The position numbers and the translations under genes are program-made. The notes under the pieces were generated by a model, which was not told where the DNA came from, made no database searches, and saw only the letters and a list, made by a program, of their open reading frames with translations. DNA of 64,000 bases from Arenicola marina (Eukaryota > Annelida > Polychaeta > Arenicolidae): the NCBI GenBank assembly GCA_964019135.1, contig OZ025248.1:33225670-33289669 (forward strand), written 5' to 3'. Positions 4,291-64,000 of this stretch are shown here, in pieces (the stretch's first letter is position 1; every line of letters begins with the position of its first letter).

Positions 4291-4523
4291 ATACAAGGCC
4301 TATCCCTACCTTTATGGGGATGAGTTTTGTCAATGCTGATACCACAGAAGGATGTTGCTCGATCTGTTGTTACACAACGGTAACAATAATCCCTAGAAGC
4401 CGAGCTGTAGCGATAGGTCATGTCGCGAGATGGCAGGAGTAAAAATCAAACAGATAAGATAAGATTTTATTTTTACGTCGGTATAGGTATACATAGAAGT
4501 CAACAATAAATCGATTAGCTCAT

Positions 4524-4913
4524 GTGCCATGGGTTGGCACGCCGCGGCATCTCACACGAACGAGCATCGTACTGATTGAATATCCGGAGAAAGTTTTTAG
4601 ATCCGTACACAAGGAGAAGGACCAAGGTGTGATATGGGATGATGAACTGAACTTCAGAGAGGAGATCGCGTGCAGAATACAGGAAGCTAATAACATCATG
4701 GGTGTAATCCGAAGAACATACATATATCTGGACGAGCGGACCTTTACTCTACTGTTTAAAGCCCTTGTACAGCCACACCTGGAATATGCCGCCTTCCGTG
4801 TGTGATCGATCCATATTACAAGAAAGATATAGAGCAGCTAGAAAGGGTACAGAGAAGAGCGACCAGTCAAATCCCAAACATGAAGGGACTGTGTGTGCCA
4901 TGAAGGCACGTCT
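4524..4913 (+). pseudogene. LINE reverse transcriptase fragment, 5' part
   Basis: The frame reads EKDQGVIWDDELNF, then NNIMGVIRRTYIYLDERTF and FKALVQPHLEYA. This is the conserved end of the reverse-transcriptase domain of CR1/L2/Jockey-type non-LTR retrotransposons. The frame breaks after LEYA, but homologous residues (ERVQRRAT) follow in another frame. There is no RT core or endonuclease, so this is a 5'-truncated dead copy. It is cut at 4913 by the element at 4914-6115 and resumes at 6116. Confidence 0.75.
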
Positions 4914-10200: not shown

Positions 10201-13200
10201 CGGGAAGAGGGGGCGGGGGAGTTGAGAGGGCCAAAGTCGGGGTGCGGCTTATAATATGTAGTTTTCCGGAAATGGTTCTGGGTGCCTGCCAACCCAGTTT
10301 TGAGGCCAAAGTTGGGGTGCGGCTTCTAATATGTATGCGGCTTCAAATAGGCAGTTTACGGTACATCAAGCTTTTTTGTACTTTCAGGTGGTAGCAACCC
10401 CTTCCATCATCTGGAGAAGAGCACTGTCTTGCAAGATGCAAGAACTTTCAATGAGACTCCAATCAACCCGCGAAAATGCAGTCTCATTCTCACAAAGATC
10501 CTGTATCTTATTAACCAGGTATGATGTCTTTAAATGCAACTGTAAATGATTTTGTTAAGATTTTGGAAAGTCATTAGTCTGGTTCAGTTCTTTGGACATC
10601 ATTGCATTTCATGGAATCTTTTTTTGTGTATGTCCAGGGTGAGCACATTGGGACAACAGAAGCAACAGAGACCTTCTTTGCCATGACAAAGTTGTTCCAG
10701 TCGAAGGATATAACCTTGCGCAGGATGGTGTACCTTGGCATCAAGGAAATGGCTACCATTGCTGAAGATGTGATCATTGTGACAAGCAGTCTGACCAAGG
10801 ACATGACAGGCAAAGTATGCATATGGCTAAATTCGGGAATATAGCAAGCTTTGTGTTTTGCAAGGCCTTCTTTACCTCAAGATATCATGCCAAAAAGCCG
10901 GCCAATGTCATATGCTCATATGTCATATGTTGCTTTAGTTTTTCTAAAGCACTGCAGATCTTTGGATAAATCCAAAAAAAGATCCTAAACCATTCTGATT
11001 TTTAAACATTTGTTTGAGTCGGCAATAAGTTATAAAAAAAACTTTTCAGTTACTCGTCTTGAAGTGCTTTATCATGAAATAATCTAGCCTTTTGTATGTC
11101 AAGGTAATTACCCAATAATATACTAAAATTTCTATCTGCCAACTATTCTTGTTACTATTGTTTTTGCATTTGAACTATATTCACATTTCAGGAAGACCAA
11201 TTTCGGGGGCCAGCTATTCGTGCCCTGTGCACGATAACCGACGTGAGTAATGCAAATATTCCTGGAGTCCCTGACATTTTATTTGTAATACTCAATAAAT
11301 TATTAAGCCATTTTCCTATCTGTGGTTAATGATGTTCACTATATATTTGCGAGCAGTTCTCCAGAGATTTTTAATTTGTCACTAAAGCAGGGGTATCAGT
11401 ACAAGTTTCAAGGATTGTGAATGAAGAGTAAAAGGCCACAAATTCTTTCATCAACTGCAGTTGCAATGGTAAGCAAGATATGCCATATTAGGACTGCCTA
11501 TGGAGAATACCCAGAATGATTGAAGTAGTTGTGAAAGATTCTTGCTCATTCATACCGGTTTTGCAGAGCACTATGCTGCAGGGGATAGAGCGCTACATGA
11601 AGCAGGCCATTGTTGATAAAGTGCACCCTGTGTCAAGTGCGGCTCTGACCTCTTCCTTGGTAAGTCTTCCTAGTCTTTTCCTGAGGAGTTAATGATTTGC
11701 ACTGTTACTTTCAATCTTCTCGTACCCGGATCATTGTTTATGGTAATTTCATGTTCGATATTCAGTTTGGCAATGGTACCTTTAGGATGAATCAGGGGCC
11801 ACCATGGTGACTTGTGTGGCCTTGTCGAGTTAGGCCAGCCATTGCACCGTTCGGTGGTTCGCGCCGCATTGTGCGAATAAAAATTCCATTTATGTTTGGT
11901 TATCTATATACACAAGCATACCACTGTATCATTTATATCAATAGTAATAATAAATACATATTATGCCTTCAGCATCTGGCGCGACAAAGTCCTGACGTTG
12001 TGAAGAGATGGGTTAATGAGGCGCAGGAAGCAGTCAACAGCGACAATGTCATGGTCCAGGTAGGAAGCTATCGACTTCTATGTCATCTATGACCGTTCAC
12101 CCTAATGACATATGTAAAAGATGAGAAGGACCAGTGACACAATTCCATTACGAAGAGCCTTCTTACCTCAGTTGGTAAGCGAGCTGAGCTGCAGATCATG
12201 ATCATGCGTTCGCGCCCTGGCCCCTGCGCCTGAGGGGTGTAAGCCCCATTTCATTGTCTCGTTTAGTGTTATTGGACTCTTTTTGTATGTGGCTGCTTGC
12301 ATATTTCAGTACCATGCCCTGGGCCTGCTCTACCACATAAGGAAGTCTGACAAGCTCAGTGTCACCAAACTGGTGCAGAAGTTTGCCAGACACTCGCTTA
12401 AGTCTCCCTACGCCTACTGTCTCCTGGTAAGTCTGAATGGTTCTTCCCAAGACGTCACATGAAATTATGGCTTGAATATCTGAACCATGGTCTTATTTTT
12501 ACGCGATATGCCAAACTGTATAAAGTTACAGGTTCGGGTATGTAGTGGTATCAATAATAATGCATGCATATCTTGATAAATTATGTCCAACTAATGATCT
12601 GCAAACGCACAATGAATGATCTATGCAGGCGTTTGTAACTTTCTCTTTCTTTGTCAGATTCGCATAGCTTGCAAGCTGCTGGAAGAGGAAGATGCAGGGT
12701 ACGTAAAATTCTTAAAGAACCCATTCAGCAGTATCTATGCATCTCATTTATGGTCGCTTGAGTCTGAAACAGCTTATGAGTCCTGTCATGGTAACTCGTG
12801 TTAGTGTCTTAGTTGGTGATTTAATTGCTTGACGGATCGTGCTTTCGGCTGGATCTCTGCTATATCTTGAAATTCAATAGCAACGGCAAATATTTATTGC
12901 CATTAATGAATTTATGAGATCCTTGCACCCGTTCCGCGCAGACTTTAAGTTGAGCAAACAGTGACTTGCTTGGGTATTGTAGAACTGACAGTGCGATGTT
13001 TGAGTTCATCGAGAGCTGCCTGCGCCACAAGAGTGAGATGGTGATCTACGAGGCGGCCCACGCCATTGTGAACATGAAGCACACGACCGCCAAGGAGCTG
13101 GCCCCAGCCGTGTCCGTGCTCCAGCTGTTCTGTAGCTCTCCCAAACCCACCCTGAGGTTTGCTGCCGTCAGGACCCTGAATAAGGTACGCGGCTTATAAA

Positions 13201-16200
13201 CATAAGGCGACCAAGCCGCATGTTGCTCTTTGCAATCCGTCGGTAAGCATATGGCATTGGTTCGAATGGGAAATGTGTTTATATCAGTCTCCCTGTCCGA
13301 GCCTTTCGCACTAGAAGATGTGTCGTATGCATTTTCTCTCACAAACCTTAATCAAATTTCACCCTGGGAGTTGACAATCAAAAAGTTGTCTAAGTCTGAG
13401 ATTGCGGGATGGGTTTATCCCGAGCCTTGTGTCACAATCGGCCGCAGCCAAATAAGTGCGAGAATTGGTATTTCTGAACAATGTACGACACCTTAGGCCG
13501 ACATTTCTCATGTTATTTCGTTATCTGCAAAAAGTGATTTATCAACCAATACATCGTGCACGATCACGGCCCCTCACGCCTGGACCAGTGCAAACCAAAA
13601 TAACTTAAAGGAAAATAGTGGTTACTTGGTGGTACACGTTATGTGCATTCAATACCATACTTACGTTAGGGAAATGATGTCAAAGCGGCCAGTTCGAATC
13701 GTATGCCGGCGCGGTATTTTTTGCAAAGGCTAAGGGTGATTAACATGTGTTGGTTGATGGCTGCTTGCAGGTTGCCATGAAGCATCCGGCCGCAGTGACC
13801 GCCTGTAACATGGACCTCGAGAACCTCATCACCGACGTGAACAGAAGCATTGCCACGCTGGCCATCACCACCCTGCTTAAGGTAAGACCCCACAAAGACG
13901 CATGTCAACAGGAAGATTGCCACGCTGGCCATCACCACTCTGCTCAAGGTAAGATCCCACAAAGACACATGTCAACAGGAGCCTTGCCACGCTGGCCATC
14001 ACCACTCTGCTCAAGGTAAGATCCCACAAAGACACATGTCAACAGGAGCATTGCCACGCTGGCCATCACCACTCTGCTCAAGGTAAGATCCCACAAAGAC
14101 ACATGTCAACAGGAGCCTTGCCACGCTGGCCATCACCACTCTGCTCAAGGTAAGATCCCACAAAGACACATGTCAACAGGAGCCTTGCCACGCTGGCCAT
14201 CACCACTCTGCTCAAGGAAAGATCCCACAAAGACACATGTCAACAGGAGGATTGCCACGCTGGCCATCACCACTCTGCTCAAGGTAAGATCCCACAAAGA
14301 CCCATGTCAACAGGAGCCTTGCCACGCTGGCCATCACCACTCTGCTCAAGGTAAGATCCCACAAAGACACATGTCAACAGGAGCCTTGCCACGCTGGCCA
14401 TCACCACTCTGCTCAAGGTAAGATCCCACAAAGATACATGTCAACATGAGCCTTGCCACGCTGGCCATCACCACTCTGCTCAAGGTAAGATCCCACAAAG
14501 ACACATGTCAACAGGAGCCTTGCCACGCTGGCCATCACCACTCTGCTCAAGGCAAGATCCCACAAAGACACATGTCAACAGGAGCATTGCCACGCTGGCC
14601 ATCACCACTCTGCTCAAGGTAAGATCCCACAAAGACACATGTCAACAGGAGCCTTGCCACGCTGGCCATCACCACTCTGCTCAAGGTAAGATCCCACAAA
14701 GACACATGTCAACAGGAGCCTTGCCACGCTGGCCATCACCACTCTGCTCAAGGTAAGATCCCACAAAGACACATGTCAACAGGAGCATTGCCACGCTGGC
14801 CATCACCACTCTGCTCAAGGTAAGATCCCACAAAGACACATGTCAACAGGAGCCTTGCCACGCTGGCCATCACCACTCTGCTCAAGGTAAGATCCCACAA
14901 AGACACATGTCAACAGGAGCATTGCCACGCTGGCCATCACCACTCTGCTCAAGGTAAGATCCCACAAAGACACATGTCAACAGGAGCATTGCCACGCTGG
15001 CCATCACCACTCTGCTCAAGGTAAGATCCCACAAAGACACATGTCAACAGGAGCCTTGCCACGCTGGCCATCACCACTCTGCTCAAGGTAAGATCCCACA
15101 AAGACACATGTCAACAGGAGCCTTGCCACGCTGGCCATCACCACTCTGCTCAAGGTAAGATCCCACAAAGACACATGTCAACAGGAGCATTGCCACGCTG
15201 GCCATCACCACTCTGCTCAAGGTAAGATCCCACAAAGACACATGTCAACAGGAGCATTGCCACGCTGGCCATCACCACTCTGCTCAAGGTAAGATCCCAC
15301 AAAGACACATGTCAACAGGAGCCTTGCCACGCTGGCCATCACCACTCTGCTCAAGGTAAGATCCCACAAAGACACATGTCAACAGGAGCATTGCCACGCT
15401 GGCCATCACCACTCTGCTCAAGGTAAGATCCCACAAAGACACATGTCAACAGGAGCATTGCCACGCTGGCCATCACCACTCTGCTCAAGGTAAGATCCCA
15501 CAAAGACACATGTCAACAGGAGCCTTGCCACGCTGGCCATCACCACTCTGCTCAAGGTAAGATCCCACAAAGACACATGTCAACAGGAGCCTTGCCACGC
15601 TGGCCATCACCACTCTGCTCAAGGTAAGATCCCACAAAGACACATGTCAACAGGAGCCTTGCCACGCTGGCCATCACCACTCTGCTCAAGGTAAGATCCC
15701 ACAAAGACACATGTCAACAGGAGCCTTGCCACGCTGGCCATCACCACTCTGCTCAAGGTAAGATCCCACAAAGACACATGTCAACAGGAGCCTTGCCACG
15801 CTGGCCATCACCACTCTGCTCAAGGTAAGATCCCACAAAACGCCAACTCGCGACATATATCTTCCTTCTCCGGAAATTTAATATACCAACAAACTTTTCG
15901 GTTGTCGCCTAGCCTAACGTGTTACCGCCATCTTAATGTTGGGGTTAGTGACCTGGTGACGTGTGTCTCACCACTGATGGCCGCCATATTTTATCATACC
16001 TTACAGACTGGCAACGAGAGCAGCGTCGACCGCCTCATGAAGCAGATCTCATCCTTCATGTCAGAAATCTCGGATGAATTCAAGATCGTAGTTGTCCAGG
16101 CTATACGGTGAGTATTGCTGTAAAGTTCAGCGTCTGCCCGTAACTGCAAGAGCATTGTGTTAAACCCCTTACCAGAGTGTGCCACAGCTCATGACGCTGC

Positions 16201-19200
16201 ACCCGCATACTACCCGTGACGCCCTAATGTGGGAGAGGTTTCAGTCCAATGTCTTTTTCACTGTCACAGTTTTATGTTTTGCGATATGAGTGTTTCGAGT
16301 TCGTTGCGACTCAGATGGTAATTCCATTAGTTATATCTTTGAGAAATTTTCTGATATGTTCTGTTATTAACCCCTAAATACATGTATGTATTAAGCCGGT
16401 GGGCCCTAGTGTTTCTGCGCATGATCGACTGACCTGTACCCTGGTTGTGGCCGCAGGTCGCTGTGCCTCAAGTTCCCCAGGAAGCACGCCGTCATGATGA
16501 GCTTCCTGTCATCCATGCTGAGAGATGAGGTGACCAGTCGCGGCTTAGACATACCACTAATTATCGTCACCTCTGCCAAATGTGTCGAAATTGGACTACA
16601 TTTACCTATTGTATAATCCGCTCAGGCAGTGACATTTGGGAAAGCAATTACGATACGGTGATGGAGTAATTTAAAGTCGTTTGATAAATTATTTATGGTG
16701 AAACATAAATATCAGGCTATCCTTGGCCCCAGTTATTTATACTTTTATCATTACGCTGTCAGTTTTGCCTTCGTCACTATCTTTTACAAATTTTCGTACA
16801 TTATCAGCTGCTACTTAACTTGCATCATGCTACCAATAATGCAGTGTTTAGATTGCTCAAACCCATGCGCAATCCATCATTAGTAACCAAATCATGGAGT
16901 AGGTGAGTGAGACGGTTCTCTCTTATATATCGTCCAGGGAGGGTTCGAATACAAGAAGGCCATCGTGGACACGATCATCATCATTATTGAGGACAACCCC
17001 GAGGCCAAGGAGGCGGGCCTGGCCCACCTGTGCGAGTTCATCGAGGACTGCGAGCACACCGTGCTGGCCACACGTATCCTGCACCTGCTGGGTCGCGAGG
17101 GGCCGCGCACCCCGCAGCCCGCCAAGTACATCCGCTTCATCTACAACCGAGTCATCCTGGAGAACGCTGCCGTCAGGGCAGGTCAGTCTCCGTCCGGCCT
17201 AGAGCCTAGAGGCGTTTTGATTCTCGGCGTGCATGTTTATCTACCTTGGCGTAACGTTTAAACATGCCTGTTCGTCCTAGTCCCGCAAGCTCGTGGCTTA
17301 AAGTTTTTTTAAATTTTGTATATGTTTCTGCTCGTAATATATTTTGCATATTTGCTTGAGTGAGCATTATGATGGTTGGCTTAGCATGAAGATGTGATTA
17401 TAAATATGTGCGGCGTCTAAATATCAAATCATTGATTTCTCTGGACCACCTGTCTACGTGTGCAGTTCTTCACTGGATATGCCCGATGAGTGAGTGTTTG
17501 CGGTGTTAACCATTCTGTTGTCTGCTTCAGCGGCTGTGACGGCGCTGGCCAAGTTCGGTGCCCACTGCGAGGAGCTGGTTCATAGCATCAGCGTGCTGCT
17601 TGAAAGGTCAGTCAACGCATTTCGCTCCTAGTCAGTGAAAATGTGGTACGTTATCGCTCTCTACCGATCAGAAATCGCGTTTCGCTCTCTACCGATCAGA
17701 AATCGCGTATCGCGCTCTACCGATCATAACTCTTGTATCACTCCCCACCTCCGAACTCACGAATCGCTTGTTACTTGTAAGAGTGTGCTCTATGGTTTAG
17801 ATCCCACGCTGTACATTCTCCAATATCACGCTGTATATTCTCATAATTGACGGTGTTCTCAGGTCCCAGTTGGACACCGACGATGAGGTTCGTGACCGCG
17901 CCACCTTCTTTCTCAACATCCTCAACGAGAGGCAAAAGGCACTTAACTCTGCCTTCATCCTCAATGGTAAGCCTGCCGTCTTTATGTTACATACGGTGAA
18001 ATGCTCCTTCTGGCGGCTTCCAGACACTGGTTTAAATAGTGTGTTTCAAACGACCGTTTTTGGAGCGTTGTCTGTGGCGGTCTTGAGAGCCTAATAAAGT
18101 AGAGCAATTGCTGAATATTTCTGATACAGAGGATCCGTAATTATCTTGCCGCGGATTGGGGATTATTAGCGTGGCAATGCTCTTGTAGTAAATTCGCTTA
18201 CTAGCCCACATTGGTCGACGCATGCTGTACATAATGCATGCTGAATTGGAACTAAACTGTATCTTATAGCATCATGACTTATTGCCAGAAATCAAAGTTT
18301 GTATTAGAGACCTACCTTTAATACGGGAGTTGTATCTACAGGCCTACAGGTGAGTATCGTGGGTCTGGAACGCGCCTTGCACCAGTACACGATGGAGCCC
18401 AGCGAGCAGCCCTTCGACCTCAAGTCCGTACCTTTGGCCACACAGCCACTGCAGGACCAGAAACCAGGTGAGGCCGCGACTGACTTGTGTACGGTGTAGC
18501 AATGCACCTCTCTGCCATGTATTGCCTGCTATCTGCCAGGCGTAAGTCCCACTCAATCTCTCTGCTGGAGCATCCGTTACTCGGTGGGTAAGCGGGCTGA
18601 GCTGTAGATCATGGCTCTAGTTAGACTTTTAAATGCACTGTAGGGTCCTAATTGTTCTCCCTGTCTTTCTGCCACTACTTTAAATGCTCACGCATGTATG
18701 ACGTCGTTTAGTCTAGTTAGTTTGGTCTGTGTAACTGTTCATAGAGTATATACAGTGTGATTAATAGCTCACTTTAGGCAGTGTTATTAACCTGGTAGGT
18801 GTACGTGTAATATGTGTATGACGTCAGTTGTGTCTATACAGTGTGTATGACGTCAGTTGTGTCTATACAGTGTGTATGACGTCAGTTGTGTCTATACAGT
18901 GTGTATGACGTCAGTTGTGTCTATACAGTGTGTATGACGTCAGTTGTATCCATACAGTGTGTATGACGTCAGTTGTGTCTATACAGTCTGTATGACGTCA
19001 GTTGTATCCATACAGTGTGTATGACGTCGGTCGTATCCAAACAGTGTGTACGAAGTCAGTTGTATCCATGCAATATGTATGACGTCAGTTGACTTAATAC
19101 AGTGTGTATGACGTCAGTTGTATCCATACAGTGTGTATGACGTCCGTTACATCTATACAGTATGTATGACGTCAGTTGTATCTAAACAGTGTGTATGACG

Positions 19201-22200
19201 TCAGTTGTTTGTTCATGCAGCGTCCCGGCCCGGGGAGGCGGCGTCCGCCAAGCCCGAGAAGGAGAAGGTGGCCGCCTCACGCCAAGACGTCTACGCCGGT
19301 ATGTCGCCCAGCCCCACCAACCCCCACCCACCGCACACACCTTCTGTATATATCGTTATTAGGGGTGGATATTGTGTTCATCACGGAGAAGTATTTTTTA
19401 GATAATGGATACATAAACGATTACAGAGAGGAATGTTTTTAAAAATTAGCTAGTTTGTTCTTGATGATGTTAACAAAGGCATTAAAATACTCTATTTATT
19501 TAAGAAAGTAGATATTGTGATGCTAATGTGGTTGTTTACTCGTGGTGTGTTCTTAGAACAACTTGCTGGGGTGCCGGAGCTGGCTAACCTGGGTCCCCTG
19601 TTCAAGTCGTCGAGCATGCCGATAGAGCTGACCGAGTCAGAGACGGAGTATGTGGTTCGCTGCGTGAAACACACCTTCCCTAACCACATGGTGTTCCAGG
19701 TGAGTCACGCTCTGCTGCGATGAAACGTTCCAGTGTCTGGGAATTTTGTAACATTAATAATACACTAATAGTAATGAACAATATACTAGACGCATTCCGG
19801 CAACGAAACGGATCATATATGGGACCGGACTTTATAAGATTAATCTCTTCCGATGATTTTCCTTCCTGGTAAGATAAATACACGTTCCCATGCCTTATCG
19901 TTCTTGCAACTCTTGAAACAGATTAACAAGAATGGGATAAAAATTTAACGGTTCATGATACAGACTGATTGGTAGATACTTCAGTGTTAATAGATACTGG
20001 CTATCAGCCTAGGGAGCCAGTGACAGGCAAGGTAACTGACCGACTGATCCTCGAGTGACAGGCAAGGTAACTGACTGACTGATCCTCTAGTGACAGGCAA
20101 GGTAACTGACTGACTGATCCTCTAGTGACAGGCGAGGTAACTGACTGACTGATCCTCTAGTGGCTGGCAAGGTAACTGACTGACTGATCCTCTAGTGACA
20201 GGCAAGGTAACTGACTGACTGATCCTCTAGTGCTCTAGTGGCAGGCAAGGTAACTGACTGACTGATCCTCAAGTGACAGGCAAGGTAACTGACTGACTGA
20301 TCCTCTAGTGACAGGCAAGGTAACTGACTGACTGATCCTCTAGTGACAGGCAAGGTAACTGACTGACTGATCCTCTAGTGACAGGCAAGGTAACTGACTG
20401 ACTGATCCTCTAGTGACAGACAAGGTAACTGACTGACTGATCCTCTAGTGCTCTAGTGACAGGCAAGGTTACTGACTGACTGATCCTCTAGTGACAGGCA
20501 AGGTAACTGACTGACTGATCCTCTAGTGGCAGGCAAGGTAACTGACTGACATCCTCTAGTGACAGGCAAGGTAACTGACTGACTGATCCTCTAGTGACAG
20601 GCAAGGTAGCTGACTGACTGATCCTCTAGTGACAGGCAAGGTAGCTGACTGACTGATCCTCTAGTGACAGACAAGGTAACTGACTGACTGATCCTCTAGT
20701 GCTCTAGTGACAGGCAAGGTAACTGACTGACTGATCCTCTAGTGACAGGCCAGGTAACTGACTGACTGATCCTCTAGTGGCAGGCAAGGTAACTGACTGA
20801 CTGATCCTCTAGTGGCAGGCAAGGTAACTGACTGACTGATCCTCTAGTGCTCTAGTGACAGGCAAGGTAACTGTGACTGATCCTCTAGTGACAGGCAAGG
20901 TAACTGACTGACTGATCCTCTAGTGACAGGCAAGGTAACTGACTGACTGATCCTCTAGTGACAGGCAAGGGAACTGACTGACTGATCCTCTAGTGACAGG
21001 CACGGTAACTGACTGACTGATCCTCTAGTGACAGACAAGGTAACTGACTGACTGATCCTCTAGTGCTCTAGTGACAGGCAAGGTAACTGACTGACTGATC
21101 CTCTAGTGACAGGCAAGGTAACTGACTGACTGATCCTCTGTCTGTCGTCAGTTCGACTGCACGAACACGCTGAATGACCAGATTCTGGAGAACGTGACCG
21201 TCCATGTGGAGACCAGTGACGGGTTCGAGGTGGTTCGCAACATTCCGGCGGCCCGCCTGGCTTACGACAAGCCCGGCACCACCTACACCCTGATCCGAGT
21301 GCCCGACGACCCCACGCAAGGTGAGCACGTCGCTACAGCACACCCTGAATTATTAAGGCCTAAATTATTGTAGCAAGATCATTGCAGTGAAAGTAGAACC
21401 ACGCGCATATATACGCTCTTCTTATAAATATACCATTCAAAACAACAAAAGTGTTTTTCGAATACAAACCCTGCCTAATCGGCCAAAGGTGTATAATGAT
21501 ATATACACGCTCAAAGAAGTCACTTGCTAAACGATTCTTTGTGATCGTTTAGTTCTGGAGAGGTACGTGTTAGGCCCGAGGTCTTATAGCAGCTGTTGTC
21601 ATTAGGAATCCTTCGCCGTTGTTTACAGTGACCGGTACGTTTAGCTGTACGCTCAAGTTCAACGTCAAGGACTGTGACCCCAACACGGGAGAGGCGGACG
21701 AAGACGGCTACGAGGACGAATATGTGGTGAGTGGAAACCCCAAATTTCCACTCTGGTCAATGGCCTTCCGTCCCGCTCATAATATAAACAAAGCCCTGGT
21801 TAAGTTCATCACTTTAAGTCTCAGATTGGTGGTGAGGAACTCGCGATACTTAACATGGAGCAAATTACACCCAATGGTATCTATAAGCAATAATTAGTTT
21901 CACTTCATTTTTTTACGGAATTTCGGCGAGGCTTGTATTTGAGATGGTGCGGCGTTCCTTTGACCTTCAGCTGGAAGACGTGGAGGTGACGGTGGCTGAC
22001 CACGTGCAGCGTGTCATGAAGCCTAACTTTGCGGCCGCGTGGGAGGAAGTGGGCGAGCCGAACGAGCTGGAGGATACCTACGCTCTGTCCACCATGAAAA
22101 CCATGGAAGGTCGGTGTACATGTCAGCCCACAGCCTCGCTGTGGGCCACGTTATGTTTAGAATACAGACTGGATACCGGTATCACTTGCATCTTTGTATA

Positions 22201-22820
22201 TTTTATGCGTAACATGTGCCGCGGGATTAAACCCCACTAACCCTTTATTTAGGGGGCTGGGGGGTGGTCACTTCACGGCCCAGTGGGTAGCGCGTCCGCT
22301 TATTGTCGAGGGTGCTCTGCCTGGCCAGCCCAAGCGGCCGGCGCGTTGGTTCGAATCCCACCTGTGCAAATGTTTTTGGTTGTCCAGGATAAATATCCTA
22401 TACCTGTCTTCGCAAAGAGTAACGGGATACTCCAAAAGGCACGGCTCCTCCCTTCCGATGATCGCGATATGACCTGAATTTACAGCGTCCTACTGTAAAC
22501 GAACCAACCATTAGGTATGTGTCAGCATATCATTAGTTAATAACCAATAACGTGCCGTACGCGGCGTATATCGCGTCCTTCCAGAGGCCATCAAGAACAT
22601 CATCCAGTTCCTGGGCATGCAGCCGTGCGAGCGCTCGGACAAGGCCCAGGAGGGCAAGAGCTCGCACACCCTGTACCTGGCCGGGGTCTACCGGGGCGGC
22701 CACGACGTCCTCGTCCGGTCGAAGCTGGCCCTGGCCCAGGATGGCGGCGTCAACATGCAGATCACCGTGCGCAGCACAGACGCTTTCGCTTCCGAGGTGC
22801 TCGCCACGGCCGTCGGCTAA
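7299..22820 (+). CDS. COPG: coatomer subunit gamma (gamma-COP), complete 22-exon gene
   Basis: Gamma-COP links the adaptor-like half of the COPI coat to cargo and ARF1 on Golgi membranes. Exons: 7299-7332, 10388-10518, 10638-10814, 11192-11242, 11567-11659, 11973-12059, 12310-12426, 12658-12698, 12983-13184, 13771-13881, 16007-16107, 16457-16529, 16938-17181, 17531-17606, 17863-17966, 18342-18467, 19221-19298, 19557-19699, 21152-21320, 21629-21726, 21971-22109, 22585-22820. All introns are GT-AG and every phase matches; the product is 876 aa (vertebrate ~874). The N-terminal HEAT trunk (about 1-550) includes [27 protein letters not shown] and RWVNEAQEA. The appendage begins near residue 640 ([12 protein letters not shown]) and ends with [20 protein letters not shown] matches the family start, but an in-frame ATG lies two codons upstream (7293). 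No breaks; near-certain identity. Confidence 0.97.
7333..9565. other. COPG intron 1, upstream part
   Basis: No exon or clear gene is seen. A 25-30-bp motif resembling 'gtggtctaacctcgatccc' near 8294 reappears inverted near 8690 (ggggtcgaggttagaccacg), with a weaker copy near 8886, which suggests an old foldback element. The rest is AT-rich intron. Confidence 0.4.
9566..10363. mobile_element. 798-bp TIR MITE in COPG intron 1
   Basis: Perfect terminal inverted repeats of 28 bp start TACCGTAAACTGCCTATTTG and end with the complement. Subterminal 'gggtgcggctt' motifs repeat inside the element. The target duplication is ambiguous: TA at each end is possible, or CAT if one end base is excluded. The right end lies only 24 bp upstream of exon 2, so the element sits just beside the 3' splice site. 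A fragment similar to its interior (gccagacagaaactt) occurs at about 26877. No coding sequence. Confidence 0.75.
12150..12245 (+). mobile_element. tRNA-derived SINE head, COPG intron 6
   Basis: The sequence 'cctcagttggtaagcgagctgagctgcagatcat' resembles an A-box-bearing tRNA 5' half and recurs in similar form near 18575 and 28105. A weak B-box-like 'gcgttcgcgcc' follows. It does not fold as an intact tRNA, so it is called SINE debris. Confidence 0.4.
13837..15839 (+). repeat. 67-bp array of exon 10 end plus 5' splice site, 30 copies
   Basis: The first unit is the real 3' end of COPG exon 10 (13837-13881, 15 codons encoding [15 protein letters not shown]) plus the first 22 intronic bases. Twenty-nine further units follow with exactly 67-bp spacing: landmark gccacgctgg runs from 13852 to 15795, which is 29 x 67. 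Almost every unit keeps AAG|GTAAGA, so intron 10 begins with about 30 near-identical donor sites. The array consensus differs from the real exon at GTG/GTC, AGA/AGG, ACC/ACT and CTT/CTC, all synonymous. Some units carry CTT for ATT (Leu for Ile). Reading through in frame meets TAA at 14017. Confidence 0.95.
18555..18625 (+). mobile_element. SINE head fragment, COPG intron 16
   Basis: 'ttactcggtgggtaagcgggctgagctgtagatcatg' matches the tRNA-like head seen near 12165 and 28105. No B box or tail is clear. Confidence 0.35.
18811..19208. repeat. 29-bp minisatellite carrying a CRE palindrome in each unit
   Basis: Fourteen units are phased at 29 bp, with TGACGTCA-phase positions 18819, 18848 and so on to 19196. 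Eleven of the fourteen keep the perfect palindrome TGACGTCA, the consensus site of CREB/ATF bZIP factors; the units at 19022, 19051 and 19138 are mutated. The array ends 12 bp before the exon 17 acceptor at 19221. Confidence 0.9.
20017..21139. repeat. 35-bp minisatellite abutting the exon 19 acceptor
   Basis: About 32 units of a 35-bp repeat contain GGCAAGGTAACTGACTGACT and GATCCTCTAGTG. Some units carry a short extra 'tgctctag'. Each unit holds a donor-like AAG|GTAACT and two or three CTGAC branch-point-like words. The array ends 12 bp before the exon 19 acceptor at 21152, so the acceptor-proximal intron sequence derives from the repeat. Confidence 0.9.
22260..22510 (+). mobile_element. tRNA-derived SINE, COPG intron 21
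   Basis: The head 'cacggcccagtgggtagcgcgtccgct' and B box GGTTCGAATCCCACC form a tRNA-like unit. The tail 'caggataaat..cct' to 'cgcaaagagtaacggg' and 'gatatgacc' is shared in diverged form with 46605-46795. It lies about 75 bp before the last COPG exon. Confidence 0.6.
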
Positions 22821-27525: not shown

Positions 27526-29512
27526 CCCTGATCATGATCTTGTACAAGCATCTTGTTGCTCAGTGATGTTGAAATTAACAGTTAACATTTGAGCAACATT
27601 TTGTTGCCCCTGCTGCATATCAACCATGTCACAATAATCACTGTTCTCCATATGCTCCACTTGTATAGACTGGAATAAGGATTGGAAGCCGGGACCCTTC
27701 CCCACAACACCAGAGGAGCGAGCAGCTGCAGCAAAGAAATATGGCCTCAGGCCAGAGGACTACCAGCCCTATCCCGACGATGGCATGGGATATGGAGACT
27801 ACCCCATGCTGGAGAGAAACCCTGTGGAGGCCAGAGATGCCTATGAAAACTGGGATATACCAGAATTGAAAAAAAACTATGGGGAACCGGTAAGTTTTGA
27901 ATAAATTGTGAATTGTGTGAAGTCGTATATCAGTTACTATTTGTAATTAGTTGCCATATCTATAATAGAGGTATGAGCTTGAATCTTTCTTGGTGCCCAG
28001 GTGAATAATTGGGCATGAACTTTTATTGTACTTTTTATTTAATAAACATTTCCAAAGAATACAAATTGTTTTGGGTTAGAATCTCTTTGTGATGGGTGAT
28101 TCTCCGTAGCTCAGTTGCTAAGCAGGCTGAGCTGCACATCAACAGGTCATCTAGATATATGACCCTTTCCATCAAAGGCAGATTTTATCCAAGCAAAGTT
28201 CATGGTCCCTGGAGATTTTCTTGGCCAAATTCAGGTGCACAAAAGCGGTCTAAAACGTCTGGCATCTCATTTCATTCCTTTCTCGTCATGGTGCTTGGCC
28301 AGCTATTGATATCCAATGTCCTTCTGTGACAAGAGGGCCAGGACAGGGATTAGTTGTTATGACCTGGCTCCGTTTGCTGATATGTTTACTCAATGTTTCA
28401 GTTGCACGTGGACATTGACGCTATGAGGGAAGATGCGTGGAACCCCAAAGCTGTGTACAAGAATAGTTTGTGAGTACAGTTTGTACGTGATGATACTTGA
28501 GCGAAAACTGCCCATCTCGGGGCATTCCTCTATTATACAACTTCCTTCCGTTATACGGGCTTTTCGGGCTGGCATTACAGAAGTCGCATAACGCAGAGAC
28601 CACTGTACCCACCTTTCCCTTATACTTAATATCAAGAATGGACATATTTTTGGATATGCAACCTACCACGCAAAAAGTATAGTGACATTAATACTATGGC
28701 TAACATGTCAACCGTGAATAGTGATTTTTTACATGTGTGTTTGAAGGATATTACTGTGATGGCTGTTCTTGTTCCAGTTCCTACATGTACGGCTGGTTTT
28801 TCGCTGTCGTTGGAACAATCACGCTTTGCTACATCCTCATGCTGCCCTACCCACATCATCACAAAGTGGTAGGTCATGTAACAGTCGATGATATGATGAA
28901 TTTATTGTTTATTGGCCCGGCGTCAAGAGGAAGCAGCCGTCATTTGCGATCGGACATGGGCGAAAATGGAGGGTTGTTATAGATTGATGTCTGGGGGGGG
29001 GGGGGGGGGGGAGGGGGGCTGATGTAATGGTTTGTGCACAAGACCGCAGGTCCTGGGTTTAAATCAGTGCATGGGCACCTAATCTGGGACCTGTTTTATC
29101 CACGTATCATTCATCGTCCTGGCAGGTTCTTCGGGCCGGTTTATCCCTTGTATGTACAATGGCCACCTAAATCACTTTGCTAATCGCGCTATTAATATTA
29201 CTGCGAGTTTCAACTTCTACAATCGCCTGGAACTTGTTTAGAATTTCCCCCGTAGAGGTGTGGGTAGTTATGACTCCTACATAGCGTGATCTACCTAAGT
29301 AACGATTACCAGCTGATAATAATATTGACTTACGGATGAAAATTTATCTTCGGATGAACTCAAGCGCACCATCTTATAATTAAAAGAGAATGGCCTAAAA
29401 TTCGCAATATGGTCGGTTGCCCTGTCTGATAAATGACGCTTTCTTATTTCAGATGCCAAAGCAATACGCCCAAGAAGGCAAGACACATTATACTTTTGAA
29501 CCGGTGGAGTGA
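25105..29512 (+). CDS. NDUFB8: NADH dehydrogenase 1 beta subcomplex subunit 8, five exons
   Basis: NDUFB8 is a supernumerary single-pass subunit of mitochondrial complex I, in the distal membrane arm. Exons: 25105-25198, 27669-27889, 28402-28469, 28778-28868, 29453-29512. Phases match and the product is 177 aa (human 186). Residues 1-31 ([14 protein letters not shown]..) are Arg/Leu-rich without acids, like a mitochondrial presequence. Exon 2 carries the family signature [19 protein letters not shown], then [16 protein letters not shown]. Exon 4 encodes the membrane helix ([19 protein letters not shown]). The short last exon ends EPVE. The start context aaaATGG is strong. It lies 2.3 kb downstream of COPG in the same direction with its own spacing, so it is a separate gene. 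Confidence 0.95.
25754..26362. mobile_element. 609-bp foldback TAGCC-type MITE in NDUFB8 intron 1
   Basis: It is flanked by a perfect 9-bp duplication, AATAGCATA (25745-25753 and 26363-26371). The ends are TAGGCCTGGTATATGCCTC and the complement of TAGCCCTGGTACATGCCTC. Almost the whole element is one inverted repeat with ~300-bp arms centred near 26060; for example 'ttttcttgtaatccgggc' appears in both arms. It has no coding capacity. Terminus and duplication length match 5340-6060 and 41109-41210. Confidence 0.85.
26372..27668. other. NDUFB8 intron 1, downstream part
   Basis: Contains old repeat debris: 'ggggccatattcataat' near 26714 echoes 'ggggccgtattcataat' near 25363, and 26877-26945 resembles the interior of the MITE at 9566-10363. 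An (AT)n run is at 27496-27525. No further exon was seen. Confidence 0.4.
28095..28335 (+). mobile_element. tRNA-derived SINE, NDUFB8 intron 2
   Basis: Begins 'tctccgtagctcagttgcta' followed by 'agcaggctgagctgcacatc', a tRNA-like head of the family seen near 12165 and 18575. About 200 bp of tail follow, up to 'cttctgtgac'. The exact end is uncertain. Confidence 0.45.
28995..29125 (+). mobile_element. G-run and SINE-like element, NDUFB8 intron 4
   Basis: A run of G (from about 28993) precedes 'tgatgtaatggtttgtgcac', a tRNA-like A-box region, and 'gtcctgggtttaaatc', a B-box-like motif. The tail includes 'acctgttttatccacg'. Degenerate. Confidence 0.4.
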
Positions 29513-33515: not shown

Positions 33516-35002
33516 TACAAGGGTTCGAAGCCGTCGGTGATCTGCAATGACTCGACCACGGCGGTTCCTCTGTTACATCCGGTTTAAATTTGGGACGATG
33601 GATGGCAATCGATCATCCTGCTTCCATTTGATACATTATAATGAGCGCTTTAAGAAGCTGATCGGGTCACATTCCTGACTGTTTGTGAACGATAAATACT
33701 ATACTGGATATATGAACGTATACACGTACTTAACTAATTTTCTTCATGACCAATGGGCATCCCCCTAAAGTGAATCATGATGACCGGTAACTGTAAGTTT
33801 CAGGAAGCGCCCTAATGATTGATTATACTGATAATTAGTGGTGACATTCGCCTAATGTGGGATTTTGAGAAATGGTGGTGGGGTGGGGTGAAGGGGTGCT
33901 TCATACGTACGTGGGTCGCATTCACAAGAAACATTGGTGTGGGGGGGGGGGGCAGTGGTATGGGGGGGGGGGCCTAAAAAGGGGAAGCGGGCGTGTCCAC
34001 ACATTTTAATCACATAGAGTTTCCTCGGGCATCCCAGCTCCAACATGGATCGAGGAGTGGACCATACTCATGGACCCCACGTGGCTTACGCATGGGCTTT
34101 CGCAGGTCCATCATACGTGTAGCCTACTTGACGATTGGCGGCCCCTTGTATCTGCCTTTCGGCGGAAACTGCAAAATGATCCCAGAAAATGTGATGTGTA
34201 GTATGGTTTTTATTAATACCGCCCCAGGGTTTATATTAAGGTGAAATGCAATTGCGATCCCTGGCCGAGTACGTGGTTAAAGGGCACGACCATGGTGTCG
34301 GTGACTTGTCCACGTTTATCTTTGTCAAGAATAAAGAAGGGAGAAAGCGCCATCTAGCGAAGGCGCGTCTTAAGTCAACACATGCATATATCCATTGTGA
34401 GACGAAAATAATTTATTTTTATACTTTTACGTAAGTGAAGTAAACTCCATATGCGTTGGATTTATCTGGTAACATATGTGCCCATATAGTCACGCAAAGA
34501 ATTGACACAGAGTCAGCGCACTACAAAATACTATACTATTATCTTAATCGCAGCTGTCCTACAATATAAATACACAACGTACCTAGCATATGTCCTTAAA
34601 TTGTTAACTTTCCCACCACAAATCAACCATTTGCACCATCCCGCTATTGGATAAATCTAGTGCAGCACTGAACCTAAACAAATTGGCCGTGCTTAACACA
34701 CACAAAAATGTTAAATCGACCAGCGAGTAAGGCATAACACACACACCCCTGACTATCGGCCATTGACTGAGCAAATCGCTTGATCCTTATATCCACCACG
34801 ACGACTAATGCCGCGAAATTACCCCGACATCAGGCACCTATATGAACAATCCTGTGATATCATTGATATAATGCCGACTGCTGTAGCTATTTTGATATAT
34901 CATCTAACCCATCACAAGTCAACTTCTTTGACATTAATTAAGAAACGCTATTCGATAGCCCACTAATAATTACAACCTATAAGTAACAACGTGATAAAGA
35001 AA
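33516..35002. other. intergenic stretch with G runs
   Basis: Two G-rich runs are at about 33939-33952 and 33961-33972. No gene, splice-supported frame or structured repeat was recognised in the remainder. Confidence 0.4.
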
Positions 35003-35285
35003 AGTGGCATACTCGGATAAGGTGCGGGCTGCATGCAGACGTCATTAACTATGAGAGTAAATTGGCATACTCGGATAAGGTGCGGGCTGCATGCAGACGT
35101 CATTAACTATGGGAGTAAAGTGGCATACTCGGATAAGGTGCGGGCTGCATGCAGACGTCATTAACTATGGGAGTAAAGTGGCATACTCGGATAAGGTGCG
35201 GGCTGCATGCAGACGTCATTAACTATGGGAGTAAAGTGGCATATTCGGATAAGGTGCGGGCTGCATGCAGACGTCATTAACTATG
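35003..35285. repeat. 58-bp tandem repeat, five copies
   Basis: Units start at 35003, 35061, 35119, 35177 and 35235, each with 'ggcatactcggataaggtgc' and 'ggctgcatgcagacgtcatt'. They are nearly identical; the last differs by one base in the first motif. Each contains the palindrome TGCATGCA and a GACGTCA core. Confidence 0.9.
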
Positions 35286-36496: not shown

Positions 36497-39400
36497 TCAC
36501 AAAGTCAACGTTTCAAAGGGCCACGTGTAGTTATACATGTAGAAGTCCACGGAATACTGGTCGTAGAGGAACAACAAACTATTGAGGGTTACATTCTTGT
36601 AGAACGTCTTCATTGTGGCCAGGTCGTTCCGTTTGGAGGTGATATGACCGCCAACGACGGGGGTACTGGCCGTAGAGCCGTACAATTTCTTCATAATGTA
36701 CTTGACGTCCGTGTGGAGCGTATCAAACTTCCCGATGTAGTCATACTCGATATCGCAGGGGTGGCACACTTCATACATGACGCTCCAATGAACGTCGAAG
36801 TCCTTGTGATAGACGACGAACTGGACGAACTCCTCGAAGGTAACGCCGCTGGCGCTGATCTCCTCCTCCGTCAGGCCAGGACGGTGCAGTCGCAGGATGC
36901 GCCGCCGGATTCGGTTCCAAACGTGGGAGCGGCGGTTCTCGTTGAGGTCCAAGAAGCGGTCTTGATAGACCGCGAGGAGGCGTTCGAACGGATGGGTGAC
37001 GAAGAGGACCTTGGCGTGCTCCATGAGGAAGTAGTTCATGTCGCGCTGCGCGGCGAAGTGGAGGGCGTCGGGCGCCAGTCGCTTGTCGATGATCCGGTCG
37101 TCCCGCTGGGACTGATCCTGTCGGCGCGACTCCGGATGTTTGAAGAGCGTACGCACCAGGGCGTGCAGAGCCGAGGTCCACGCCGTCGACCGGTGGTGCA
37201 GCGCCGGACAGAAGATGATCTCGTCCACCGGATCGACGATCATGTTGTCGGCCACGCTGCGCGCCACCCGCCGCCAGGGGTCGTGGTCGTCGCCCTCGCG
37301 GATGATCTTACAGGTGGAGGCGATGAGGCCCTTCCGCCGCACCTGCTCCGCCTCCCACTCCAGCTCCGCTGTAAAGACACGATGGGTACACTTGATGAAG
37401 TTGAAGGACACATTAAGAAATGAAGGTGAAGGGCACGATACGAGAAGAATGTGAAGGGCACCGGAAGAGATGAAGGTGAAGGACACAGTAAGAGATGAAG
37501 GTAAAGGACACAGTAAGAGATTTGCTCATCGAGATACACTAACAGCGGAGATGACAGCATATATATATATATACTGTATATATATATAACGCACTAGGAT
37601 TGACATCCAATGAGATATGTACAGTGCCTGTAGAATTAGAACGTGTACACTAGATACCCTATCTATGAACTAATGCATTCTAGTAAAGCATTCTATTGCG
37701 GACATATATGATCTGTGCCACGTTTAATCTGTAAAATATGCATATTCGACTGCCGACGACAAAGAATTAAGGGGCCAAGAGACAGCTCCGCTAAAACTGG
37801 TAGAATGTGTAATTAAAAAGCATTTGCACGATCCGACTTAGCCATGCAAAGCACCAGGTTAAATTCTGCTTCATTGCCGGCCTTTTAAAAGACGGCGATG
37901 CGTCGCCGTGAATGAATAAGGGGTCACTCAGGAGTCACCAGTTTGCCGGACACGATCTATCCATAAGAAAAGTACGGCGGTTCGGTTCTTTTCACATCGA
38001 GTTCCGCACACCATGCTGCCATCTACTAGCTGAGCCACTCAGCCACAACCCATGCGCCCAGAGCGGAATGTTTAATTAGTTGTTAGGCATGGGTGATTCC
38101 CTTAGCAGACAGATGAAACCAATGTTCTCTACGGCATTCCGTACTGGGAAGAAACACCCATTAAGCGAAGATTTATACTTTTCCGCCCGGCATGATGAGC
38201 TCATGCGGGCCATGCAGTCACCATGACAATAAGCATACTCTCAAGCGGCCCTGTGTTAACTCGATGCATTGATCTCTACACGACCCCCGGCCAATTCCGA
38301 GGATCCCTAATTCTGAATCGTTTTATGAACATGATGAACAAACACTCCTGCCGTAGCGTACAGTGGAATTAAAGGTGAGAAGGGCGCAAGCTATATGTGT
38401 ACATGCGTCCTTCTAATATATTGCGAGCCGTCAGGAAATCGTTCAATGGTGGGTGGTATGGCGCTGACAAGAAGGCCCAGAAGAAGATAGCTTGCTTCGA
38501 GTTCTTTTTGCGAAATATCCTTCTTATTAAAATCCATTACTGAATTTTGTCCGGCCGCCTTGTAGTGCGAACAACGGCATATTTCATCTACAGTTAACTA
38601 GCATGAACGTAGTCGGTCATTTTCTAGCAGGAGATGCACGATCTGACAGACGGTACATTGAGAAACCCATTCTCCCGGCAGAGGTCGTTTCGCTAGCCCA
38701 GTCAGCATGATCAGTGATGAGCTCAGTCTGTGGGATAGAGCGTGACAACGATCGGCACGATATTTGGTGCCGCCATCTAGTGAGTGATTTCACAGTTAAC
38801 TGATCAACCGAAAGGCAGAGCGTCTAGTTGAGATTTGACAACTATTACGTGCTCAGCTGCGCCCCCACCATCCACCACGTGACATCATCTTAAAAGAAAA
38901 GTCTTAGATCCACCCCGGGAATATTTTCATGTGAGAAATACCCCCCCCCCCCCGCCCCCCGCATCCCCGCACAACATCCCGTCAACAAAATATCATATAT
39001 ATTTCATATAAAATAACATCATGGCGACGATAGGCTAACTGTCGACCAATACACGTCACTTGAACCTACTGTCCCGAACGGCGCGGCTACGATTCAAGGT
39101 CATCGATTAAATATATTTTATGTTTGGCCAATATCACAGCTCTGTTATGCAGCACTCCACAGGCGCTCTGTAAAATCAATTGAGTGCCTTCCATAATGTA
39201 TAACAAATCAATTGAATTGTTTGTGAATGCTTAGGATAGAGCCTATAGATATGCTGTAATGTTCCGGCGAGGAGACTGGTATAGCACATCAAACTATTAT
39301 AGGTTACCATGGTTGGAGAAATTTGCCAGCAACGTAATATAATTACAGAATATTTAATTAGTTTCGTAGCGGATCTTACTGCTGAAGTGTGTGCGCGCGC

Positions 39401-42400
39401 ATGCCGTTTAACTACAATCTCCATTTTATGGGTTAGATTTGTTTATACATTCCACCATAACCTTTTAAAGAGAAAACCACGGCTGCCCTACATTTCTGTA
39501 TGGAGCGAGCTGGAAATCAATTGCTATATCGGCCGAAAAGCACCATTTACCATACGCAATGGTTCGTCCGACTATATGTAACTTATAAGCAAAGCGATAA
39601 GTGTATTTATGCTGCGGGCGATTGTCCTTGGTTACAGACTACTGTTATTTCCTTCAGGATTTTCATGTGCCAGAACACTTGTATTTTAGGCGAGGCATCT
39701 GCTATTCAAATGTTTACGGTAATAAAGTAATAAGGTTGCGAGCTTCCCGTTAGATGGCGATATAGACATCCCGGCTGACACACCACAACGTTTTACAGAC
39801 TGGGATTGAGAGCTTCTAGGTTTTTGGATTCAATGACATTCAACACGTGGCTGAACGAAGAGCGTCTAGTTGTCCCCTATCTGTGGCATCGCTGATGACA
39901 CTCCTTGGTCCATGCATGGCTGTTTACAGATGGCCGGGCGCGTGAAACCAACAGCTGTTTATTGACCGTGCGACGCGAAAAACATCCTGCTCCACAAATG
40001 TCAGGCGAACGCTGTTTCTGATACCCCGTATGCATTATTCCAATGGAACGAAGCCTATGGCTGTACAATTAGCCATCCATGCTATAAATCAGGACCACTT
40101 CCCTGTCATACATTTTTCGTGGTCGACAGCCGATCGATACGAATAACACGGACTTATTTATTACCACGGGTTGTCCAAATGCTTTATCTCGTAGACTGGC
40201 GCATGGAGCGGAGAGCCAGGCTGTCCGGAATCGTCTTCCTTGCAAAACCTCGGCTTCGCAGGAACACTGACGTTAACTTGGTATAGCTCAGTGTGACGGT
40301 GTGCTCTTGTCCGGGATGGGAGCAGGACAACCACCCGGACAACTCCCACCCGGACAACTCCCCCCGGGACAATTCCCCCCTACGACAAGTCCCTCCCGTA
40401 CAACTCCCCCCGGGGACAACTCCTCACCGGACAACTCCACCCCCCCCCCGGACAACTCCCCCCCCCTCCTTCTCGGCTATTCCGTGGGTGGCTATGTCCG
40501 GGAAATTGTCTCCGGGGGGGGGTTGTCTGAGAGGGAATTGTCGTAGCGGGAATTTGTCCGGGGGGGGGTCCGGGTGGAGAGTCATCCGGGGGGGGGGACT
40601 TGTCACAAGAGGGGATTGTCCGCGGGGGAGGCGGGGGTTGTCGGGGGGGAGTTGTCCGAAAGGGAACCGTCCAGGATATACCCGTGCTGTACCCTGCTCA
40701 GTGTATCAAGTCAGTGCGAAACAATGCACATAAAAGAATGACCTCACGATAAATCCATCTCGCACTCATGTCATATTCATATCATCTCATTACCCCAAGC
40801 AATATAACCTATACACGTATACCTCGGATGAAAATTGTGTGACATCAAAATCGGTTTCCCTTATGCCTATTGATAATTTCATAGGTCATATTGAGATTCG
40901 CTGCAGCAGTAAAGCCCATATTACTGCAGCTGTCAATAAATTGCGTTGTCACTGAAGCATAGCCGGTTTCCATGCTGCATTTACGCAACCGTGCATACTA
41001 TGCTGCTTTTAGTGTCATAAATCTGGGGACGCGCGCACAGTGCCCTGCCCTGATTGTATTCTGCCGAGTCTTTTGGAATCAGATTGATGAACCTTGTCTG
41101 TCTTTTTCTAGCCTGAAAATGAGACGCTAATGGCGTGAGACAGTCTGAGGGATCGATAATGTCGGTCCCTCAGACTGGCTCACGACATTAAAGTCTGATT
41201 TTTCAGGCTAGTCTTTTTCATGAAGGAAAACCCAAATATCTTTATTCGTGATTGATCGGGTGTGGAGTGACGCTCCCTAGACTATATATCTGTTGAATAT
41301 CTCTTTATGTACCGGTTCACTACTGTGTTACTTTTATGATTTTTTAATATCTAAACTATTATATATCATATCGCTTTAAACAATTGAAGCAATTGCATTG
41401 AAAAGGACAGCCAACCTTTACGGGGTAATCCACCGGGGGGTGTTGGTACAGATCAAATTATGCATATTAATATAGAGGCTATATCTACACGTGCCTTTGA
41501 CAGGTTGTTCAGCGCGTCTGAAATTATTGATCACCTATCACTTCACCAACTGTGGTATTAAGCTGGGCCTACATGCCCTACCCACCGGGTCGACTGCAGT
41601 GGTCGTCGGCCTTACGTGCTACAGGGGGGGGGGGGCAGAAACTTTGGTGCAGATGGCCGTACAGACCTCATGACTATATTAAGTACAGTTTTCTTGAGGA
41701 AGTAAAGACTGAGCTTGTATTACATCGCCTGTCGGCCACTTCTTGAATGAATTGGACTTGTATTACATCGTCTGCTTTGCCACTTCTTGAATGACTTGGA
41801 CCTGTATTACATAGTCTGCTTGGTCACTTCCTAAATGACTTGGACTTGTATTACATAGTCTGCTTGGTCACTTCTTGGATGACTTGGACTTGTATTACAT
41901 AGTCTGCTCGGCCACTTCTTGAATGACTTGGACTTGTGTTACATCTTCTGCTTGGTCACTTCTTGAATGACTTGGACTTGTGTTACATCGTCTGCTCGGC
42001 CACTTCTTGAGTGACTTGGACTTGTGTTACATCGTCTGCTTGGTCACCTTTTGAATGATTTGGACTTATATTACATAGTCTGCTTGGTCACTTCTTGAAT
42101 GACTTGGACTTGTATTACATCGTCTGCTCGACCACTTGTTGGATGACTTAGACTTGTATTACATCGTCTGCTTGGTCACTTCTTGAATGACTTGGACTTG
42201 CATTACATCGTCTGCTTGGCCACTTCTTGAATGACTTGGACTTGCATTACATCGTCTGCTTGGCCACTTCTTGAATGACTTGGACTTGTAGTACATCGTC
42301 TGCTTGGCCACTTCTTAGATGTATTGGACTTGTATAACTGTTACACCGTCTCCTTGGCCATTTCCGGGATGACTTGGACTTGTATTATATCGTCTGCTTG

Positions 42401-46890: not shown

Positions 46891-47603
46891 AGCGTCCCAA
46901 GTGGCTGACCTTGGGCTGTAGTCACGTGCTAAGCGAGTGCACTTTACACATGTCCTGTTTCTGCAACAGATAATATCAATCCGTCGCATGGTGATGGGGT
47001 GGGGGTGATGGTGTGTGGTGGATTGGGCGGCTCATACTGAAGCGTGGTATCAATTTATCGCCCCCCCCCCCCTCTTTCTCCCCATTCAGCCCTGATTGCA
47101 CGGTTGCAGAGTTCGTCGCGTTATTGTCTTATGAAACGATTTCCTCCGGTCTGATGCGGTGTGACGACCGCGTGGGCGGCAGCCAATGGGGAACGGCAAA
47201 TCAGTTGCAGTCAACAACCGGTGTCGATACGTACGTCTTCACGTCGATACGAGGTTTATGAACACGTGTGATGTACTATATAATATGGCCGACAAATAAA
47301 ACGTCACGCCGCAAATGTGGATAAAAACAACGATACATAAGTACCGCGTGAGTTTAGTGCGGTATTCTATATCACTTAATCCTCTGTCTTTGATTCGTAC
47401 GGGTGTTAGATCTATTAGGTCCTTTGCTTCGCGGTGTTTATATTCACAACAGTGATAATAATCTTAATGGTTTTATATAATCTGAAAACCTGATATAATG
47501 AAACTCCCAGGCTAGGTTGGCGACGTTCATATAACAATGTACGTATAATAGGCCTGATTCAGCTCATAGTTTACGCATGGAATTTGGAGTGTCATGTAGA
47601 AGT
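46891..47603. other. spacer before the satellite array
   Basis: Contains a C run at 47060-47071 and otherwise unremarkable sequence. No gene recognised. The satellite begins abruptly near 47604. Confidence 0.4.
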
Positions 47604-63760: not shown

Positions 63761-64000
63761 TTAGATGACAGAGCGGTAGGGAGAAGGGATCCACGCATAG
63801 GGACAGTGAAGGGAAGAAGCCATGTGTAGAGGACAGAGCGGTAGGGAGAAGGGATCCACGTATAGGGACAGTGATGGGAAGGAGCCATGTGTAGATGACA
63901 GAGCGGTGGGGAGAAAGGATCCGCGCATAGGGACAGTGAGGGCAAGGAGCCATGTGTAGATGACAGAGCGGTGGGGAGAAGGGATCCACGCATAGGGACA

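Follow-up and report, generated by a model that had tools for sequence, protein, structure and literature searches.

A tandem array of thirty exon-end and 5' splice-site units in the COPG gene of Arenicola marina, probably a splice-junction minisatellite

The stretch of DNA analysed here, which we call the window, comprises 64,000 nucleotides of the lugworm Arenicola marina (assembly GCA_964019135.1, contig OZ025248.1, positions 33,225,670 to 33,289,669 of the forward strand; positions given below count from its first letter) and contains COPG, the gene of the coatomer gamma subunit. Inside this gene, the end of a coding exon and the 5' splice site that follows it are repeated in tandem in 30 units of 67 bp, which brings 28 intact and identical donors together in front of a single acceptor, while only the first of the 30 donors gives full-length COPG. 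We think that the array is most probably one of the splice-junction minisatellites known as mirages in amphioxus. It would have arisen by tandem duplication and amplification, and selection of the 5'-most donor through exon definition would explain why it is tolerated.

The array (array 1) lies on the plus strand at 13840–15839. Tandem Repeats Finder (TRF) describes it with a period of 67 bp, 29.9 copies, 98% matches and 0% indels. When the units are compared one by one, 30 of them stand in an exact 67-bp register; they are numbered here from 0 to 29. Unit 0 is the COPG exon end with its donor and units 1–28 are full length. Unit 29 is truncated and not diverged: its first 57 of 67 bases follow the consensus and then the matching ends. 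Each unit consists of 42 exonic bases (AACAG...AAG, 14 codons) and 25 intronic bases beginning with the donor. One column is dimorphic in units 1–28, with A in 11 of them and C in 17; outside this column, just 8 non-consensus bases are found in 28 × 66 positions, spread over six copies. Given such length and identity, a chance origin of the array is of no concern. The initial annotation of this DNA, made from the letters alone, was therefore right in placing a tandem array of an exon end plus 5' splice site inside COPG. Its unit of 15 codons and 22 bases is the same repeat cut in another phase (45 + 22 against the best 42 + 25), the extra codon GTG being GTC in the copies.

The naming of the gene was also correct. 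COPG exons were placed at 10638–22817 by tblastn with a human COPG1 sequence as query, and manual placement of canonical GT/AG borders then led to a model of 21 exons on the plus strand from 10388 to 22820. The spliced model has 864 residues, and all of them align to mouse coatomer gamma-1 (gamma-1-COP, 5a1u_E, residues 15–874) with 1402 bits and an E value of 0. A further N-terminal exon, expected upstream, was not found in the exon modelling. The exon that ends in unit 0 (13771–13881, plus strand) is exon 10 in the numbering of the initial annotation and the ninth of the 21 modelled; it has 111 nt and phase 0 at both ends. Skipping it would remove 37 residues in frame and would bypass the array without a frameshift. 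The exon after the array (16007–16107, plus strand) has the acceptor TTACAG, which is the top-scoring one of the intron (11.9, the next reaching 4.5), being itself among the 18 acceptors behind the matrix. The join of 13881 to 16007 is free of gaps in the alignment to the mouse protein, over a stretch of 20 residues across it; thus, donor 0 and the acceptor at 16007 form the coding join. COPG has a role in trafficking and is presumed to be an essential gene.

The donors of the array can hardly be told apart by their sequence. Donor 0 (GTAAGA, 13882–13887, plus strand) stands in the context AAG/GTAAGA, which is identical in 28 of the 30 copies. The two exceptions, both on the plus strand, are copy 5, with a broken donor GAAAGA (14217–14222; AAG/GAAAGA after 14216), and copy 10, with a weakened GCAAGA (14552–14557; AAG/GCAAGA after 14551). 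The previous description of an intron that begins with about 30 near-equal donors consequently holds for 28 copies and fails for these two. The last donor, that of copy 29 (15825–15830, plus strand), is 182 nt from the acceptor. With a score of 10.3, the 9-mer of the array donor is above 16 of the 19 other COPG donors (leave-one-out scores 3.7–11.5), and just one of the 731 GT sites in COPG outside array 1 scores as high. The energy of pairing with U1 is −9.5 kcal/mol, equal in all 28 intact copies, and 6 of the 19 other COPG donors pair more strongly. Since the 28 copies are equal, donor strength cannot single out donor 0, and position, not sequence, must therefore decide. Masking of the later donors by RNA structure was considered as well and was not robust: in local folding, donor 0 was the most open donor at one of three folding window sizes (openness 0.037 against at most 0.014 elsewhere at W = 240), whereas at W = 120 and W = 400 its value lay among those of the other donors.

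The consequences for the protein are very different from one donor to another. Use of donor k retains 67k extra exon bases, and each k between 1 and 29 leads to a premature stop that precedes many exon junctions. The initial annotation had already noticed that read-through meets a TAA, which we find at 14017–14019 (open reading frame (ORF) 13744–14019), and that the first donor alone keeps the frame cleanly; indeed, none of the 30 donors but donor 0 leads to full-length COPG. It had also suggested nonsense-mediated down-regulation as a possibility. In its most developed form, this would make the array a regulatory device, in which transcripts from later donors are lost to nonsense-mediated decay (NMD) and copy number tunes COPG output. 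Such a device would agree with the early stops after 29 of 29 later donors, with the many junctions downstream of them, and with the fact that, among the 29 extra donors, 27 do not differ from the real one. However, controls behave alike without any need of selection. When the intron part of the unit was shuffled, all 400 versions led to 29 premature stops out of 29, and all of 420 random units of a length not divisible by three gave a stop for all of the first three alternative donors; for random units with a length that is a multiple of three, the same happened in 61 of 240, and 179 of 240 were without any early stop. Since every control of a length not divisible by three runs into premature stops, we take these as an arithmetic outcome and no sign of regulation, and they do not count as evidence for the proposal. 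Moreover, two of the eight non-consensus bases strike the T of GT, and within these small numbers the extra donors show no sign of selective upkeep. Regular splicing is seemingly undisturbed by the mirages of amphioxus, normal splicing being reported for those of Adh3 and the globins (PMC3087553). Hence, we think that a regulatory role is quite unlikely and that the array may well have no dedicated function.

The amphioxus precedent mentioned in the initial annotation does exist, under the name of mirages (PMC3087553, PMC3902484). The former paper describes them as tandem repeats over exon-intron boundaries in two amphioxus globin genes (BflGb6 and BflGb9), and it cites a mirage in Adh3 with units of 10–72 bp, somatic instability and length polymorphism. 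The latter cites normal splicing for the mirages of Adh and TnC and presents repeats of 60 and 108 bp in lancelet PGBD5, without mRNA support at that place. As in the amphioxus cases, the unit of array 1 crosses the exon-intron boundary and repeats the splice signals. In amphioxus the duplication can affect 5' as well as 3' boundaries, and the unit at the edge escapes homogenization (PMC3087553); a boundary effect like that of the globin mirages is visible in array 1, in which unit 0 has six differences from the consensus against 0–3 in units 1–28. The coding copy is likewise found at the edge of the array, with donor 0 alone leading to full-length COPG, and the other copies would be removed as intron. 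Unlike the BflGb6 mirage, with two haplotypes of 6 and 3 units and an identity of 81–100%, array 1 has 30 units with 98% identity. The PGBD5 repeats also abut or overlap splice sites, but their copies are imperfect and number 2 or 7 and 3 or 6 according to which assembly is consulted (PMC3902484), whereas the 30 copies in COPG are near-perfect. The gene is different too: COPG is a trafficking gene, presumed essential, and it bears two further arrays at 3' splice sites. Judging from these structural features, array 1 is best read as a large and very homogeneous example of the mirage kind already described.

Other duplications at splice sites are less close. PMC4974935 deals with a tandem duplication in potato RdRp and cites 24-bp AGGT repeats in fission yeast; in these cases, as in array 1, tandem duplication adds splice signals, and in potato it does so across an exon-intron boundary. 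Unlike intron gain by tandem duplication, however, the coding-compatible reading of array 1 yields no new intron or exon, and no acceptor within its units scores above −1.3, against 11.9 for the real one, which would speak against intron gain. In the available text of PMC2206037, on huntingtin, tandem repeat elements are mentioned only beside assembly errors, and PMC2632668, on VCBP, describes complete or partial exons inside introns, some of them with canonical splice sites.

With respect to its history, we think that a 67-bp piece across the exon end and the donor was probably duplicated in tandem and then amplified by unequal exchange or slippage, most recently in the 3' part. Copy 0 would have stayed as coding exon and the other copies would have turned into intron, so that the intron may have been lengthened from 182 nt, its size without the 29 extra copies (2125 − 29 × 67), to 2,125 nt. 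The 42 exonic bases of copy 0 depart from the array consensus at four sites. Three of these changes are synonymous and the remaining one falls in the dimorphic column, which reads Ile/Leu; this fits a coding constraint limited to copy 0. Apart from the dimorphic column, copies 1, 5, 6, 8, 9 and 10 carry all the non-consensus bases of units 1–28, so that copies 11–28 are free of them. As further changes are confined to the first ten copies, the 3' part is probably younger. The chance of this polarity is 0.0006 for a cut that was picked post hoc, and one of the eight changes, a G in column 8, is common to copies 1 and 6. Higher-order repeats were not detected in the A/C pattern, whose longest repeated stretch is 6, a value reached in 1936 of 2000 shuffles. 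A very different origin would be the assembly itself, if the length or even the existence of the array were due to collapsed or mis-joined reads. The draft of BflGb6 in amphioxus was called aberrantly assembled (PMC3087553), and the PGBD5 repeat numbers vary between assemblies (PMC3902484). Nevertheless, a copied read would not yield the irregular A/C pattern or the six copies with further changes, and two more arrays with different units stand beside splice sites of the same gene. In our opinion, an artefact is highly unlikely.

If position decides, the lengths of the exon and the intron become the relevant quantities. Donor 0 gives an exon of 111 nt and an intron of 2,125 nt, while donors 28 and 29 would give introns of 249 and 182 nt and exons of 1,987–2,054 nt. 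Carranza, Shenasa and Hertel (PMC9225289) constructed minigenes in which, as in array 1, identical donors rival for one acceptor. Where the two identical donors were strong and the flanking introns measured 365 nt, splicing used the upstream one exclusively; with short introns, below about 250 nt, the downstream donor was preferred. The paper also reports a downstream preference for exons that follow a long intron and precede a short one. Of the 20 modelled COPG introns, 16 are longer than 250 nt, and the one upstream of the 111-nt exon has 586 nt; these lengths fall in the exon-definition range of that study. We therefore favour a process in which the upstream acceptor and donor 0 would pair first across the 111-nt exon, leading to selection of the 5'-most donor. 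From these lengths, the array appears to cover both proximity regimes, and the exon-centred and the intron-centred published rules would point to its opposite ends, with a 250-nt switch point that comes from PMC9225289 and may not be that of this species.

Three observations weigh against the explanation that we prefer. The last two donors, with introns of 249 and 182 nt, are inside the downstream-preference range of PMC9225289, so donor 0 is not the sole donor picked by the rules. In the genome-wide survey of the same paper, which covers human genes, there are only biases, and the upstream donor is used in just about 60% of all near-equal pairs. Finally, an ancestral intron match at the unit junction was not obtained: the alignment between the tail of copy 0 and the intron after the array was equalled by 267 of 2000 shuffles, and the linker between the exon pieces could not be traced to a parent sequence.

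The first of these observations leads to a distinct possibility, namely, that intron definition wins. The last donors, at 182–249 nt from the acceptor, would then often be used, and the allele would be partly or largely null and carried by heterozygotes. The intron without the extra copies has 182 nt, under the published switch point, and one would thus expect the rule in force at the first duplication to favour the wrong donor; with 586 nt upstream and a short intron downstream, the array would have been born in the downstream-preferring state described in that study. This possibility, however, demands an exon of 1,987–2,054 nt. COPG is also presumed to be essential, and the differences between copy 0 and the rest of the array are consistent with coding constraint on copy 0. 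The survey of donors, as said, concerns human genes. We consider frequent use of the last donors very unlikely, and we keep exon-definition choice of donor 0 as the probable rule.

Thus, we think that the value of this locus is that of a natural competition experiment on the choice among equal donors, and not that of evidence of regulation. In comparison with the two sites of the designed minigenes (PMC9225289), it is natural and offers 28 identical intact donors at a fixed pitch of 67 nt, from a short-exon to a short-intron context, at one locus. A bolder idea, which we regard as improbable, is that by pitting exon definition against intron definition in one intron with identical donors, the array makes COPG expression dependent on copy number: either the far donors near the acceptor would leak into NMD, or the row of U1 sites would speed up recognition of the preceding exon. 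In combination with the arrays at the two acceptors, repeat length might then tune the gene, with differences from one individual to the next and perhaps from cell to cell. Neither those two arrays nor the conflict between exon and intron definition appears in the initial annotation.

Array 2 (TRF, 18813–19208, plus strand) has 13.7 copies of a 29-bp unit with acceptor-like ends and finishes 13 nt before the exon at 19221, whose real acceptor resembles, by eye, the last and diverged unit of the array. Array 3 (20019–21139, plus strand), with 31 copies of a 35-bp unit that carries AAGGTAACT, CTGAC and CTCTAGTGACAG, also finishes 13 nt before an exon, the one at 21152. The donor-like 9-mer AAGGTAACT is repeated in it 24 times with a score of 8.9. 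Most units of array 3 contain AAGGTAACT, CTGAC and AG within 35 bp, so that the unit resembles a tiny intron. The real acceptors, when excluded from the matrix, are the best of their regions (6.9 against at most 4.0 at array 2; 7.0 against at most 5.8 at array 3). Whereas the copies of array 1 equal the real donor, the units of arrays 2 and 3 score below the real acceptor. Of the four TRF arrays of COPG, three are no more than 15 nt away from a junction (binomial P 0.003, for a distance picked post hoc). At 5 or 10 nt it is one of four (P 0.12 and 0.23), and at 20 and 30 nt it is again three of four (P 0.007 and 0.02, respectively). Three splice-site arrays in one gene suggest that splice junctions are possibly favoured for the birth or the retention of minisatellites in this genome.

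Other features were found in the rest of the window. An NDUFB8 exon is present at 27638–27901 (PF05821, E 5e-32), about 5 kb downstream of COPG, and the ORF at 4497–4802, a suspected piece of reverse transcriptase, gave no family in the Pfam scan. A 25-bp pyrimidine-rich array of 5.1 copies (37394–37521) lies about 26 nt upstream of the likely acceptor CGTGTCTTTACAG of a minus-strand Sulfotransfer_2 gene; it is possibly another junction array, the exon from 37368 on that strand having been set by eye. Additional arrays have units of 58 bp (35001–35285; 4.9 copies that are 98% alike, each unit containing GATAAGGTGCGG and GCATGCAG, and no gene recognized nearby), of 44 bp (41714–45063; about 76 copies), and of 65 bp in tandem (47599–64000; about 253 copies, 92% matches), the last one reaching the end of the window. 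The long open frame on the minus strand at 47527–52086 is a consequence of this 65-bp repeat.
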